Positions 15,019-51,977 of a DNA stretch of 64,000 bases are shown here, piece by piece. The stretch is taken from assembly GCA_016283355.1 (NCBI GenBank), contig JAEEMS010000008.1, forward strand, positions 36,477-100,476. Reading direction: 5' to 3'. A program made the translations under genes and the position numbers. The stretch comes from Elusimicrobiaceae bacterium (GTDB lineage Bacteria > Elusimicrobiota > Elusimicrobia > Elusimicrobiales > Elusimicrobiaceae). A model generated the notes under the pieces. That model did not search any database, was not told the DNA's origin, and saw nothing but the letters and a program-made list of their open reading frames with translations. Every line of letters starts with the position of its first letter. The stretch's first letter is position 1.

Positions 15019-15043
15019 ATGTATGTAGTTAAGAACAATTTAT

Positions 15044-15118
15044 TCGCCCTTAGCTCAATGGTGGAGCGACCGGCTGTTAACCGGTAGGTTGAAGGTTCGA
15101 GTCCTTCAGGGCGAGCCA
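15044..15118 (+). tRNA. tRNA-Asn (anticodon GTT), CCA encoded
   Basis: Acceptor TCGCCCT/AGGGCGA, ACCGG-CTGTTAA-CCGGT anticodon arm, GGTTCGAGTCC T-arm, GCCA end. Confidence 0.93.
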
Positions 15119-15121
15119 TTT

Positions 15122-15147
15122 AAAATCCCCGAAAGGGGATTTTTTGT
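15122..15147 (+). terminator. Intrinsic terminator after tRNA-Asn
   Basis: AAATCCCCGAAAGGGGATTTTTT. Confidence 0.8.
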
Positions 15148-15253
15148 TGCAAAACCTCTCCTTTTGATAAAACAAAAAAAGGACTGGTTTTTTTTTGGTT
15201 TTTTAGTATACTATTATAGTACAAGAAGTCCTTACATAAATAGGAGTGATACT

Positions 15254-15769
15254 ATGAAAAAAGGTTTTACCCTCGTTGAATTGTTGGTAGTTGTGTTGAT
15301 TATTGCTATTTTGGCCGCAGTGGCGTTGCCGCAGTATACTACTGCGGTGGAACGTTCCCGCGCTACAGAAGCGTTGACATTGATGGCGGCTATCGGGGAA
15401 TCGGCCCAGCGTTATCGTTTCCATCAAGGGGTATGGCCTACTCGGTGGTCGCAGTTGGATGTGGATATACCCAAACTTTCCGGAGAGACGAACAAATACG
15501 GTGGGAAAAATTTTCAGTTGTATTTGTGTAAAAGCCCCGATGCTTTTGATTGTTACATTACAGCCAACCGCCTTCTGAGTGAACAGGATGATCAATATCA
15601 TTTGACGTTACGATTGACGGATTCCAACGATAGTACAACGATAACGGTAAACCGTTGTTGCGGTTCGGGATCAGTGACCGAAGCGAAAAACTGCAATACC
15701 GTAGATAATAGTAAGAGGAGTAGTGTTTACTGTAACTCTATTACCGGCGGAAAGAATAGCAACTTTTAA
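15254..15769 (+). CDS. Type IV pilin-like protein
   Basis: MKKGFTLVELLVVVLIIAILAAVALPQYTTAVERSRATEA; true start is internal to the ORF-track entry, preceded by AGGAG. Confidence 0.9.
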   Translation: MKKGFTLVELLVVVLIIAILAAVALPQYTTAVERSRATEALTLMAAIGESAQRYRFHQGVWPTRWSQLDVDIPKLSGETNKYGGKNFQLYLCKSPDAFDCYITANRLLSEQDDQYHLTLRLTDSNDSTTITVNRCCGSGSVTEAKNCNTVDNSKRSSVYCNSITGGKNSNF

Positions 15770-15899: not shown

Positions 15900-16658
15900 A
15901 TGGGTGGACACTCACACTGGGCTGGTATTAAACATAAAAAAGCCCTCGTAGATGCCAAAAAAGGCAAAGTATTTACCAAAATTTTGCGCGAAATTACGAT
16001 TGCCGCCAAAATGAGCGGCGGCAACCCGGACCAGAACCCGCGCCTTCGCAAAGCTATTGATGATGCCCGTGCTGCTAATATGCCTTCGGACAACGTAAAA
16101 CGTGCTATTATGAAAGGTACCGGCCAACTGCCCGGCGTTTCGTACGAAGAAATTACGTATGAAGGATACGGGCCCGGTTCGGTGGCAATCATTGTGGAAT
16201 GCACGACCGATAATAAAAACCGTACATTTTCCGAAATTCGCAAAATTTTCTCCAGCCACGGCGGTTCTATCGGAACGGCCGGGTGTGTATCGTACATGTT
16301 CAAAAGCAAAGGTATGGTAATTGTGAAGAAAGACGATATTTCCGAAGATGATTTGATGAACTTAGCGTTGGATGCCGGTGCGGAAGATGTTAAAACATCC
16401 GGCGATGTGTATGAAGTAATTACGAATCCGGATATGGCAGAACTGGATGCCGTGAAGAAAGCCATTGAATCCAAAGGGATTACCCCGGTGTCAGCTGATT
16501 TAACAATGATCCCGGATACGGACGTGGCTATTTCTGATGAGCACACAGCTGAAACGTTACTAAAAATGTTGGATGCGTTGGACGAGCACGATGATACGAA
16601 AAACGTCTACGATAATTCCGACATTCCGGAAGAGATTGTTGCTAAATTAGAATCATAA
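15900..16658 (+). CDS. YebC/PmpR family protein
   Basis: MGGHSHWAGIKHKKALVDAKKGKVFTKILREITIAAK. Confidence 0.95.
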   Translation: MGGHSHWAGIKHKKALVDAKKGKVFTKILREITIAAKMSGGNPDQNPRLRKAIDDARAANMPSDNVKRAIMKGTGQLPGVSYEEITYEGYGPGSVAIIVECTTDNKNRTFSEIRKIFSSHGGSIGTAGCVSYMFKSKGMVIVKKDDISEDDLMNLALDAGAEDVKTSGDVYEVITNPDMAELDAVKKAIESKGITPVSADLTMIPDTDVAISDEHTAETLLKMLDALDEHDDTKNVYDNSDIPEEIVAKLES

Positions 16659-16668
16659 GAGGCATTTA

Positions 16669-17229
16669 ATGCCAATAACCACCGCTTTAGGTATAGACCC
16701 CGGTTTAGATAGAACGGGATGGGCCATCCTTACAAGGGACGCCCGTTCCGTTCTTTCTTTACGTGCGTGCGGATTGATTCACACCGACGCGGGAGAGGAA
16801 TTGCCGAGACGGCTGAATTATATCTTTCAGGAATTTCAAAAAATTTTGAGCACGTACCAACCGGACCAGGTAGCCATGGAGCAAAATTTCTTTTTGAAAC
16901 GTGCTACTACCATGGCCAATACGGTAATGACGCGCGGTGTAATCCTCCTGGCGTGCGAACAGAGCGGAAAACCGATTACTTTTTATCCGCCGCGGCGCGT
17001 AAAACTTATGTTGTGTGGCACCGGTACGGCCGATAAAAAACAAGTGCAACGTATGGTGCAACTCACGCTACATTTAGACAAACCCCCTACACCGGATGAC
17101 ACGGCAGATGCCGTGGCCATTGGGATTTGCCACTTAAAAACGGCTCCGCTTTCCAGCCGTTTAAACGTAAAAACAGCTTTTTTGGAAAAATTAAAACAAG
17201 CACGGGCGTGCCAAGTTAAAAAAAGATAA
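16669..17229 (+). CDS. ruvC: Holliday junction endodeoxyribonuclease RuvC
   Basis: LGIDPGLDRTGWAIL, VAMEQNFF, PPRRVKLMLCGTGTADKKQVQRMV, PDDTADAVAIGICH. Confidence 0.95.
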   Translation: MPITTALGIDPGLDRTGWAILTRDARSVLSLRACGLIHTDAGEELPRRLNYIFQEFQKILSTYQPDQVAMEQNFFLKRATTMANTVMTRGVILLACEQSGKPITFYPPRRVKLMLCGTGTADKKQVQRMVQLTLHLDKPPTPDDTADAVAIGICHLKTAPLSSRLNVKTAFLEKLKQARACQVKKR

Positions 17230-17265: not shown

Positions 17266-17973
17266 ATGAAAAAAATTAAAAAGAAAATCAAAGACGTAAT
17301 CAAAAAGATTGCAGATTGGATTGACCCTTATCACCAAAGTTTTTTGTTTTTTCCGTGGAAATTTTGGAGTATTTTGATAGTGGGGTTTCTTTGTGTGTGG
17401 ATGACAAAACAAGTGGAGTATGTCCAGGGGTACCCCGCCGGTTTTCTTCTTCTAATTAACAATCCTGTCACCCATTTTGTTGTTTTCCTTGTGCACGAAA
17501 TGCTGGGGCATAATATTGTAGGGGTAATTTTGTTCCTTATTTTTTCCAATTTTAATGTGGCTGTGGGGGCATGGTTACATACTTTTGCGGGTGACGGGGT
17601 TTCAATTCTTTTGCCGTTATCTTTGTATGTGGGAATGCTCCGCATACAGGGGGGGCGGTGGCTAATGCCGCTGTTTCTTTATTGGTTGTCTTTTGCATTT
17701 TTACATGCGGGTATATATGCATCGGATGCAACAGCGTGTTCATTTAGGTTGGCTTCATCGGATATGATGACAGTTCACCGTGCGGGCAGTGGCGTTTGTG
17801 GGGATTACCATAATCTTTTGGGACCGCTTGGATTGCTTCCCTACGACCAATGGGTCGCAGGGCTATTGGTAGGACTGGGTATGTTTTGTTTCATAATGGC
17901 TGTGTGGAGTTTGTATCGCTACATTTATCACGCGGAAGAGGATTATAAAAATACCCCAAAAACTCAATTTTAA
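17266..17973 (+). CDS. Uncharacterized membrane protein, HQSF-PW family, copy 1 (HEMLGH and GDYHNLL motifs)
   Basis: WIDPYHQSFLFFPWKFWSI N-terminus; VHEMLGHNIVG; GVCGDYHNLLGPLGLLPYDQ; several TM segments. Confidence 0.7.
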   Translation: MKKIKKKIKDVIKKIADWIDPYHQSFLFFPWKFWSILIVGFLCVWMTKQVEYVQGYPAGFLLLINNPVTHFVVFLVHEMLGHNIVGVILFLIFSNFNVAVGAWLHTFAGDGVSILLPLSLYVGMLRIQGGRWLMPLFLYWLSFAFLHAGIYASDATACSFRLASSDMMTVHRAGSGVCGDYHNLLGPLGLLPYDQWVAGLLVGLGMFCFIMAVWSLYRYIYHAEEDYKNTPKTQF

Positions 17974-17987
17974 GGAACCTCATAACA

Positions 17988-18575
17988 ATGACACTTACGA
18001 AAGATAAAATCAAAACATGGTTTAAGGAGTTTATGGAATGGTTTGACCCTGACCATCAAAGTTTCCTCTATTTCCCTTGGGATCTTTGGAGCGTTTCGAT
18101 GATGGCAATCTTTGATGTATGGCTGGTGACACAACCGAAATCTTTTTTGGGCGGCTTATTGATGATATTATCTCCACTTTGGGGAATAATACTGTTTTTT
18201 TGGGGGGGTGCGTTTGTGCAGCTTGAATTTGCATTTCGCCCGCCGGTAATCAATGGAGAACTTGTGTTGCCAAAGGAACGAATAAATGAAATGTTTTATT
18301 TAGGGGGATTGTTCGGTTATTTGGGAACCATTGCCCTCTTAGTTTATTTATATAGAATAACTTTGCAAAGGGATAGCACGTGGTGGAGGGCAGTTCTCTT
18401 ATTTATGTTAGCTTCGTGTTTGTGGTGTTGTGGAGCACATCTGCACCATGTAACGCATATAGGAGGAATCTTTTTCTCATCTTTGGGGGGATGCTTCTTA
18501 TTTATTTCGCTATGGACCATGTGGCGTATGATTCGGCATGAAAAAAATCAAGAATCGAATGAGGAAAATTGGTAG
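17988..18575 (+). CDS. Uncharacterized membrane protein, HQSF-PW family, copy 2
   Basis: WFDPDHQSFLYFPWDLWSV; C-term GCFLFISLWTMWRMIRHEKN. Confidence 0.7.
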   Translation: MTLTKDKIKTWFKEFMEWFDPDHQSFLYFPWDLWSVSMMAIFDVWLVTQPKSFLGGLLMILSPLWGIILFFWGGAFVQLEFAFRPPVINGELVLPKERINEMFYLGGLFGYLGTIALLVYLYRITLQRDSTWWRAVLLFMLASCLWCCGAHLHHVTHIGGIFFSSLGGCFLFISLWTMWRMIRHEKNQESNEENW

Positions 18576-18630
18576 AGTGGTTTTCTTCAATGAGAAAATA
18601 AAATTGACTGAATAACGGAATGTTAGTAAC

Positions 18631-19287
18631 ATGAAAGCAATAAGTGCGTGCAAAGAAAAAATTAAAAGATTTATGGAATGGTTTGATCCATGGCACCAAA
18701 GTTTCTTCTATTTGCCATGGAACTTTTGGAGTATTTTATTAATGGTGGGGTTGGATGTATGGTTGGTAAACCCCAAGTCGTCTAACCTGGCGTTTCACCT
18801 GTATTTTGTAATATTTTCCGTAGGCATGGCAGTGGAGAAATTTTTTGTGTATGGTACGAAAACCTTTTTGTACCTTATCATATTTTTCGTGACGTTATTC
18901 GGTAAGTTTGTGCGGACGGGTTCTTATCGTATAGTGGATTATTTTTTCGTTTTCCGTGAAGATAAAATAAGTTATGTGAATTTTTTGTCTTCTCTCGATT
19001 CTGTATTACTTTTTTGTTGTCGGCTTATGTGGATTGTGATTTTGCTTTTACTTTACAGAAGAGCCCTACACAGGAACGGTGGGCGGCTATTTGGTGCTCC
19101 CTTTTTATTTGTGCTTTCTTCTTGTTGCCTGTGGTGGTCTATAAATGCTTCTTCGCCTATTGTAAAAATGCTCTTGATAGCATTAAGTGGGTTTTTCTTA
19201 TTTGTAATACTATGGTCCGTATGGGATTCTTTTTGGCACAGTGAAGAACATTTGGAAGAGAATATGAAAAGACATGAAGAAATATAA
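18631..19287 (+). CDS. Uncharacterized membrane protein, HQSF-PW family, copy 3
   Basis: WFDPWHQSFFYLPWNFWSI; C-term GFFLFVILWSVWDSFWHSEE. Confidence 0.7.
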   Translation: MKAISACKEKIKRFMEWFDPWHQSFFYLPWNFWSILLMVGLDVWLVNPKSSNLAFHLYFVIFSVGMAVEKFFVYGTKTFLYLIIFFVTLFGKFVRTGSYRIVDYFFVFREDKISYVNFLSSLDSVLLFCCRLMWIVILLLLYRRALHRNGGRLFGAPFLFVLSSCCLWWSINASSPIVKMLLIALSGFFLFVILWSVWDSFWHSEEHLEENMKRHEEI

Positions 19288-19304
19288 TGCGTTTTGAAAT
19301 AATT

Positions 19305-19336
19305 AAAAACCCCTGCAAAAATTGCAGGGGTTTTTA
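19305..19336. terminator. Bidirectional intrinsic terminator
   Basis: AAAAACCCCTGCAAAAATTGCAGGGGTTTTT. Confidence 0.85.
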
Positions 19337-19365
19337 ATTTCTAGTACGCGCAATGCGGCACAGTA

Positions 19366-29190: not shown

Positions 29191-29208
29191 GTATTTAACG
29201 GAGGTCCT

Positions 29209-29799
29209 ATGAAAAAAGAGAAGGGTTTTACACTAATTGAACTATTGATGGTGGTAATTATCGTGGCGGTGTTGGTTTCTATGGGGGTTCCCCAATATAC
29301 CAAAGCCATTGAACGTTCTCGTGCTACGGAAGCAATGGCCTTGGTAAAGGTTATTAATGATGCCATCTATGCGCATGCGGCAGGGCGGAACCAAGATTAT
29401 AACTGTAAAGACATTCAATATGATAAATTGTCTATTGCGTTGCCAGCAGAAACTGCGTCCTCCTTTCAAGGAAGAGTCCTCGAAACGCAATATTTTAGAT
29501 ATGTTATACCGCAATACACTCTCCCCACCGAACCCAACAATATAAAAACCGTTATTCCCGGAACCAGATGTAAAGGGGTCTACGCGCAGCGTATCAACGG
29601 GGGAAAATATGATTATGTTATTTGGAATCCTTATCAAGTGGGTCGTAATAAAAAATTAGCTTGTTTTTCAGATGGTGATAAGAATGATAGTAAAAGTTTG
29701 TGTGAATCTATCGGTTTGATTCCTTTTAAGAATTCTGACGGAACCCCGAGATGGACGGACGCTAGGTTGTGGAGTGTAGGAAATACTCCGATATTGTAG
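29209..29799 (+). CDS. Type IV pilin-like protein
   Basis: KGFTLIELLMVVIIVAVLVSMGVPQYTKAIERSRATEAMAL. Confidence 0.9.
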   Translation: MKKEKGFTLIELLMVVIIVAVLVSMGVPQYTKAIERSRATEAMALVKVINDAIYAHAAGRNQDYNCKDIQYDKLSIALPAETASSFQGRVLETQYFRYVIPQYTLPTEPNNIKTVIPGTRCKGVYAQRINGGKYDYVIWNPYQVGRNKKLACFSDGDKNDSKSLCESIGLIPFKNSDGTPRWTDARLWSVGNTPIL

Positions 29800-50340: not shown

Positions 50341-50793
50341 TTATTTAATCAGGTAAGCATCTTCGCCGTTTAAATCGAAGGGGTCTTCTTGGTTGGCCTG
50401 CGACTCACAGAAGTTTTTTCCTGCAGAGTTGAGAGGAATACAGGCCAATCGGCGAAAATTTTGAGTGGTTTGTATTTTGTACTGCAAAGGTTCATCAGCA
50501 TCCTTCTTTATAAATTCCGCTTCCCAACAAATCCCTGTGCTGTTTTCAGCGCAAAAAATGCGCCCTGTAAAATGTTTTAGGTTGCTGTGTTGTAATTTGC
50601 TTGTCCACGAATCGGCCTGTGCTTGAGAGAAGTTTACGCCTGTTGCAAAGTTTTTTTGGTGTCCCCATAAAATCACTAATTCCGTCAATCGTGCACTCTC
50701 GACCGCATTACGGTAATAGGGTAATGCAACTGCGATTAGGACAGCAATAATGAGGACGACAACTAACATTTCCAAAAGGGTAAATCCTTTCAT
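50341..50793 (-). CDS. Type IV pilin-like protein
   Basis: MKGFTLLEMLVVVLIIAVLIAVALPYYRNAVESARLTELV. Confidence 0.88.
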   Translation of the reverse strand: MKGFTLLEMLVVVLIIAVLIAVALPYYRNAVESARLTELVILWGHQKNFATGVNFSQAQADSWTSKLQHSNLKHFTGRIFCAENSTGICWEAEFIKKDADEPLQYKIQTTQNFRRLACIPLNSAGKNFCESQANQEDPFDLNGEDAYLIK

Positions 50794-51977
50794 AGTTGGA
50801 CCTCAGCCAAACAATGGTGTACCAAGTGTTGTAATTCTTCCTCGGACACGATGAGCCCTAACGACCACGCAATCTCGTGCATCATATTTTGTAACAGGGC
50901 AGGTAAACTGTTCTGTAATTCAGACAAAGTAAGCGAACGGTCCATGCGTAAGTAATCTTCCAATACGGTGGCTTGTTTCTTTGCCAATAACGCTCGTACT
51001 GCACGGATATTATTTAATTTAAAACGCAGTTCAAATGTACCGGCACACGGGAGTTTTTCTAAAAATTTGCGAGCCGTTACCAAGAACAACGTTAAATTTT
51101 GGGCCAATGTTTCTACATGGATGGTTTTAGAAGAATGACCATTGACGGTTTCGGCACAGGAAACCACTTGCTTGTTCATCAACAGACCATAGGCATTGAA
51201 TTCTGTCATTTTATAGACGTTGCGTGTGTTGGAAATAATAGTGGCTCCGTCCTGAACGGGAATAAGCGGATAATGTGGGTTGGCCATGATGCCGTAACTG
51301 GCTTTAGCGGAAGATTGTCGAATGAGTTCCGGTAAAAATTTATAGGCAGCTAGCGGTTCTTCAGGATAGAGCGGAACGATGGACATGGTACAAATGCTTT
51401 CTTCCGACACAGAGGCCGTTAGAGTTTTAAGATAGTTGTCAAAGTGCCTTTCTGCTTTATCCTGTAAAATATGGCGTAAGCGTTCGGATTTTTGTCGATG
51501 ATCCAATAACCAGGGTAATTTTTCCGGGTGGACAATCGCTTCCGGACGGCTGGATTGGCCGGTGCGGATATAAGCACGTTTGAGTTTACCTACCAAATGA
51601 GGGGTTAAGTTGCTTTGCGGAATATTCACAACAATAAACATACGTTCTCTGTCGGGGCTGACACAAATATTAATATCCACAAATACAACAGGATCAATAT
51701 AGGTTTGAATAATATCTTCTATCGAATTACGGATTTTTTCGTGGTAGGCAATTCCATTATAAGGCGGGCACGGTTTGTCATTTTTATCGTCCTGCACCCC
51801 TACGATGATTGTACCCCCCAATGCATTGGCAAAAGAAGCGATGGTCTTCGCGAATTTTTCATGATTTTTGGGTAACATGTATTTATAATCCAACTGCTTA
51901 TTTTCCGGCAGTTGGCGTTCACAGAAGGCAACGATATCCTTAAATGTCAATTCGTGAATTGGTTTGTTGAACAACAT
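50790..51977 (-). CDS. AlbA_2/Schlafen-like putative DNA-binding domain protein
   Basis: LDYKYMLPKNHEKFAKTIASFANALGGTIIVGVQDD; IVVNIPQSNLTPHLVGKLKRAYIRTGQSSRPE. Start trimmed to ATG 51977 (GAGGGG upstream). Confidence 0.7.
   Translation of the reverse strand: MLFNKPIHELTFKDIVAFCERQLPENKQLDYKYMLPKNHEKFAKTIASFANALGGTIIVGVQDDKNDKPCPPYNGIAYHEKIRNSIEDIIQTYIDPVVFVDINICVSPDRERMFIVVNIPQSNLTPHLVGKLKRAYIRTGQSSRPEAIVHPEKLPWLLDHRQKSERLRHILQDKAERHFDNYLKTLTASVSEESICTMSIVPLYPEEPLAAYKFLPELIRQSSAKASYGIMANPHYPLIPVQDGATIISNTRNVYKMTEFNAYGLLMNKQVVSCAETVNGHSSKTIHVETLAQNLTLFLVTARKFLEKLPCAGTFELRFKLNNIRAVRALLAKKQATVLEDYLRMDRSLTLSELQNSLPALLQNMMHEIAWSLGLIVSEEELQHLVHHCLAEVQL

Follow-up and report, generated by a model that had tools for sequence, protein, structure and literature searches.

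A tandem trio of Elusimicrobium membrane proteins: a putative site-2-protease-like metallopeptidase and two paralogues without its catalytic residues

Introduction

Site-2 proteases (MEROPS M50; Pfam PF02163 and PF13398) are characterized by an HExxH motif and by an LDG motif that carries the third ligand (PMC10202637). A motif longer by one residue, HExxGH, marks the soluble enzymes of M49 dipeptidyl peptidase III, a family that also has shorter HExxH members, which are active enzymes (PMC9820243; PMC3268031). The related hexapeptide HELLGH forms the iron site of the tyrosine, phenylalanine and tryptophan hydroxylases (PMC3268031). Here, we describe three tandem membrane-protein genes from a rumen-type Elusimicrobium bacterium and compare them with these systems.

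Results

The trio and its neighborhood

The window, which is the whole 64,000-nucleotide stretch of DNA that was analyzed, derives from a genome of 1.4 Mb. Within it, three membrane-protein open reading frames of 235, 195 and 218 aa lie adjacent to each other on the plus strand, in the following context.

15900-16658, plus strand: YebC, directly upstream of RuvC and the trio
16669-17229, plus strand: RuvC, directly upstream of gene 1, with a gap of 36 bp to it
17266..17973, plus strand: gene 1, 235 aa, a putative membrane metallopeptidase of the HE(x)nH...(G/H)DW family
17988..18575, plus strand: gene 2, 195 aa, a paralogue without HExxxH, DAR, SSD and GDW
18045..18065, plus strand: DPDHQSF of gene 2, the shared N-terminal motif
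18631..19287, plus strand: gene 3, 218 aa, a paralogue without the catalytic residues, sister to gene 2
18685..18705, plus strand: DPWHQSF of gene 3, the shared N-terminal motif
19301..19339, no strand assigned: very stable hairpin separating gene 3 from a convergent gene (-24.6 kcal/mol, z -7.9)

The convergent gene beyond the hairpin is nifJ, named from its sequence, and the hairpin is a probable bidirectional terminator. The common strand and the 36-bp gap suggest that the trio is possibly co-transcribed with YebC and RuvC.

A DNA pattern for W(I/F)DPxxHQSF has three matches in the 1.4 Mb genome, all within the trio, and the reversed control pattern has none. A search of the genome with gene 2 returned gene 3 (E=1.4e-11) and gene 1 (E=2.3e-11), and the alignment revealed N-terminal and C-terminal blocks common to the three proteins. 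Thus, a prior sequence-only reading of this DNA was correct in describing three consecutive same-strand membrane-protein genes with a shared signature and a shared C-terminal block. It had also recognized no named family, and we likewise found no characterized family that matches the three proteins above the curated cut-offs of Pfam and NCBIfam, and nothing at all for the trio family in PHROGs or PADLOC. Pfam matches of genes 1-3 to ClpS, T4SS_pilin, the NfeD membrane domain and DUF2306 fell below the cut-offs and were set aside as generic membrane-helix similarity. Plasmid searches with three distant homologues as queries and viral-contig scans for the family gave no match, and thus there is no sign of an origin from a mobile element.

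Pilin-like open reading frames with a G(F/Y)(T/S)L.E methylation motif occur in the window at 15029-15766, 29191-29796 and 50344-50802, the first being confirmed by Pfam N_methyl. A link to type IV pilins was rejected, since pilin-like genes are found near many gene 1 homologues but, with one exception, not next to the distant loci: a pattern check of 20 distant loci revealed no adjacent pilin-like genes, the exception being one N_methyl protein (at L123) that Pfam found. No conserved partner gene was found for the gene 1 family.

Gene 1 belongs to an Elusimicrobiota family with an invariant core

Homologues of gene 1, mostly 35-48% identical to it, were found by a related-genome search in many members of the genus. 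The loci belong to uncultured Elusimicrobium or Elusimicrobiaceae, many from ruminant guts, and in related genomes the homologues often occupy the same site as gene 1. This recurrence indicates that the signature is not local ORF noise, which the sequence-only reading had named as a possible outcome. A profile search placed the family in 83 of 296 genomes across the phylum, with a strong match in 35 of the 58 sampled genomes of the genus as counted from the same search; distant relatives occur across Elusimicrobiota, in other families and classes.

The following features of gene 1 were located by comparison with these homologues.

17323..17343, plus strand: DPYHQSF, the family-wide N-terminal hallmark DPxxQS
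17494..17511, plus strand: HEMLGH, residues 77-82, a putative hexapeptide HExxGH metal motif; H, E and H are invariant in 66 homologues
17725..17736, plus strand: DATA, residues 154-157, at the position of the family DARA; the Asp is invariant in 47/47 gut homologues
17755..17763, plus strand: SSD, residues 164-166; Asp166 is invariant in the 47 gut homologues and unaligned in the distant ones
17800..17808, plus strand: GDY, residues 179-181, at the position of GDW/HDW; Asp180 is invariant in 66 homologues
17890..17940, plus strand: the C-terminal block FIMAVWSLYRYIYHAEE, the last membrane helix

Inspection of the alignments revealed that none of the 66 active-type members (47 gut and 19 distant) departs from H77, E78, H82, G109, Y151 and D180, and that all 47 gut homologues also share D154 and D166. 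In a 19-member alignment, the invariant columns include H77, E78, H82, D154, D166, G179 and D180. Distant members contain a canonical HEAGH or HEFGH, followed in most by GGTxMQxxxP and YxADARAQ...HDWxYL, and some have a zinc-ribbon-like segment N-terminal to the motif region. The N-terminal D-P-x-x-Q-S is retained in the 47 homologues at 98% (D), 89% (P), 96% (Q) and 87% (S); on this alignment DPxxQS characterizes the family as a whole and is not peculiar to the trio. Gene 1 itself has the invariant H, E, H, G, Y and D and the DPxxQS N-terminus, and departs from other family positions at DAR (DAT), GDW (GDY) and GNGxET (GDGxSI). At the level of sequence, this is a new, uncatalogued Elusimicrobiota membrane-protein family, defined by HE(x)2-3H ... 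Y ... (G/H)DW.

Genomes of the genus (L113, L123 and others) also contain a second subfamily, which carries HEAGHP and PDW; several of these genomes, such as G007 and G011, have no close gene 1 homologue.

Nine close family pairs with a computable value gave dN/dS of 0.08-0.33, which indicates purifying selection on the family. Gene 1 homologues have a median identity of 57% over 78 locus pairs, versus 90% for NifJ, and by this measure the gene 1 family is fast-evolving. A closely related species (L046) has a single copy, 44% identical to gene 1, between ruvC and nifJ, whilst its YebC, NifJ and RuvC are 97%, 96% and 86% identical to those of this genome. Across the L046 locus, identities of the neighbors to the window range from 72 to 97%, with the pilin at 47% and gene 1 at 44%.

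Predicted structure and proposed mechanism of gene 1

AlphaFold2 gave a confident model for gene 1 (pLDDT 88.4, pTM 0.84), which contains an amphipathic N-terminal helix followed by about five membrane helices. H77-H82 are situated inside one long helix (residues 67-93), and D180 begins a short helix that precedes the last membrane helix. In its sequence pattern, the family conforms to a membrane-embedded metallopeptidase, and from the residues and the model together we infer metal binding and peptidase activity for gene 1.

We propose that gene 1 encodes a metallohydrolase of the inner membrane that is polytopic and, most likely, acts as a site-2-protease-like peptidase. The second membrane helix would present His77-Glu78-x-x-x-His82. 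His77 and His82, together with Asp180 (and possibly Asp154 or Asp166), would hold zinc or a similar ion inside the membrane domain. Asp180, which belongs to (G/H)DW and is predicted close to where the last helix begins, is a candidate for the third metal ligand. Glu78 would activate a water molecule, leading to the cleavage of a membrane-protein or peptide substrate. No substrate of the gene 1 family was found.

Comparison with site-2 proteases and M49 peptidases

The family resembles site-2 proteases in being polytopic and in having an Asp on a later segment as the probable third ligand. It probably also resembles them, in most members, in placing HExxH in a membrane helix: HExxH is found in 43 of the 66 family members, whereas gene 1 has HExxGH (HEMLGH), on a predicted helix. 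Unlike site-2 proteases, the family has no LDG, its invariant Asp being in (G/H)DW, and it shows no Pfam M50 match above the cut-off and no fold match. Foldseek searches of the PDB with the gene 1 and gene 2 models gave no match (best E=1.3 for gene 1), and no site-2 protease is among the matches listed for gene 1. The wide-family profile matched the site-2 protease MJ0392 (3b4r) weakly (E=0.035); the few weak PDB profile matches also include thimet oligopeptidase-type HExxH enzymes, and they are located at the HExxH region. Two M50 matches and one M50B match lie elsewhere in the own genome. Since the LDG, a curated-model match and a fold match are all missing, the gene 1 family cannot be filed as M50.

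One homologue matched the M50B model at E=0.0083, below the cut-off. Common ancestry with the M50B family of the phylum was considered and set aside as too weak (hhalign P=0.0099, probability 4%). In 21 of the 61 phylum genomes searched there is a distinct M50B-like family, whose proteins are about 230 aa long and carry HExTH/HExSH together with a conserved Q-x-D (L144-L164; the own copy is L156 on contig C19).

Gene 1 shares with M49 dipeptidyl peptidase III the HExxGH motif and, within its family, the switch between pentapeptide and hexapeptide. However, the M49 enzymes are soluble proteins of about 700 aa with a large two-domain fold, whereas gene 1 is a 235-aa membrane protein. The second M49 motif, EExR(K)AE(D), is absent from gene 1, and no M49 model or fold match was obtained. 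As the second motif and the fold are missing, gene 1 cannot be filed as M49, and we read the likeness as convergent.

Gene 1 might instead be a membrane metalloenzyme other than a peptidase, for instance one that uses a metal to modify lipids or quinones, or one with an iron site. HELLGH binds iron in the aromatic amino-acid hydroxylases (PMC3268031), no curated peptidase model matched at its cut-off, and, with no substrate known, similar residues could hold a metal for another purpose. We regard this as unlikely, though worth keeping in mind, given that the HEAGH/HEFGH of distant members is the canonical form usual in zinc peptidases and that the weak PDB matches at the HExxH region are zinc peptidases.

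The metal-motif length has switched repeatedly

Among the 66 tree members, 43 have HExxH and 23 have HExxxH, all 23 of the latter reading HExxGH. The tree requires about three changes of motif length, and a single clade of HExxGH members was rejected (p-AU 0.000245) in a test for which the motif and the following loop columns had been removed beforehand. Thus, the length has switched repeatedly between HExxH and HExxGH inside the family, and the longer form has no single origin. As far as the literature we found shows, the same switch is otherwise reported only in M49 dipeptidyl peptidase III.

Genes 2 and 3 have lost the catalytic residues

H77, E78, H82, D154, D166 and D180 are all missing from genes 2 and 3, which hold only the N-terminal and C-terminal parts of the family features. 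The AlphaFold2 model of gene 2 (pLDDT 82.5) follows the same order of helices as gene 1 but lacks the 154-190 loop. In the tree, genes 2 and 3 are sisters (100/99) and join gene 1 (91/82) on a long branch.

The sequence-only reading proposed a tandem expansion with conserved ends and almost wholly diverged cores, serving differing cargo or specificity. The expansion and the conserved ends hold, and the middles do differ, but the core (HE..H/D/D/GDW) is invariant in the 47 close homologues of gene 1. The middles of the trio vary because genes 2 and 3 lost this invariant set, which replaces the cargo explanation with that of one putative metallopeptidase and two catalytically dead paralogues. 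A shared, non-enzymatic membrane-docking module would agree with common ends and different middles. We consider it improbable, since the family middles carry six fully invariant residues, with HE..H plus the Asp pattern, and the gene 1 core has been deleted and lost in genes 2 and 3 rather than exchanged for alternative conserved domains.

No full-length orthologue of gene 2 or gene 3 was found in 66 genus genomes, matches elsewhere falling mainly on the N-terminal region of gene 1 homologues. Given this and the single, 44% identical copy at L046, the trio is best understood as the product of a fast-evolving gene that expanded specifically in this lineage.

The lack of orthologues would also suit functionless pseudogenes decaying after duplication, as would the loss of every catalytic residue, the long branches, and a GC content below that of ruvC and nifJ. 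Nevertheless, genes 2 and 3 have diverged from each other by about 2.1 amino-acid changes per site without either frame being broken, and the end motifs and helical scaffold are retained. Synonymous divergence exceeds nonsynonymous divergence (pS 0.73, pN 0.42, with synonymous sites near saturation), so the two genes seem to be kept under protein-level constraint. Simple decay therefore appears to us a minor prospect. The best reading of genes 2 and 3 is as pseudoenzymes, in which the catalytic residues have been lost while the scaffold and the open frames are kept.

A fourth family copy, decayed and 191 aa long, is found in the same genome on contig C25 (L045, 19767-20135). It retains DPxKQS and the C-terminal block without HE..H, and groups with copies from two other species (L040 and L041) that read HSFLGH/HSLFGH (HSxxGH).

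Discussion

We favor, by a modest degree, the reading of gene 1 as a site-2-protease-like membrane metallopeptidase and of genes 2 and 3 as its dead tandem duplicates, acting as pseudoenzymes. The duplicates have lost the putative metal-site residues and the 154-190 segment. What they retain is the N-terminal amphipathic helix, the entry marked by DPxHQSF...PW, and the scaffold of helices. As probable pseudoenzymes, they could form heteromers, capture substrates or exert a dominant regulatory effect on gene 1. The iRhoms, paralogues of membrane proteases, are examples of such pseudoenzymes: they keep the protease scaffold and have lost the catalytic residues. Rhomboids are serine proteases, unrelated to the gene 1 family, and in the trio the dead copies lie in tandem with the live gene.

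More tentatively, and with considerable doubt, the family may be an undescribed group of intramembrane metallopeptidases in which the HExxH/HExxGH length changes repeatedly, the trio here forming a membrane complex of one enzyme and two pseudoenzymes. If so, an uncatalogued family would join the short list of intramembrane metalloproteases, and its members would provide a natural series on how an intramembrane zinc-binding helix tolerates a one-residue insertion. The trio would then show, in compact natural form, how a protease-like gene evolves dead partners.
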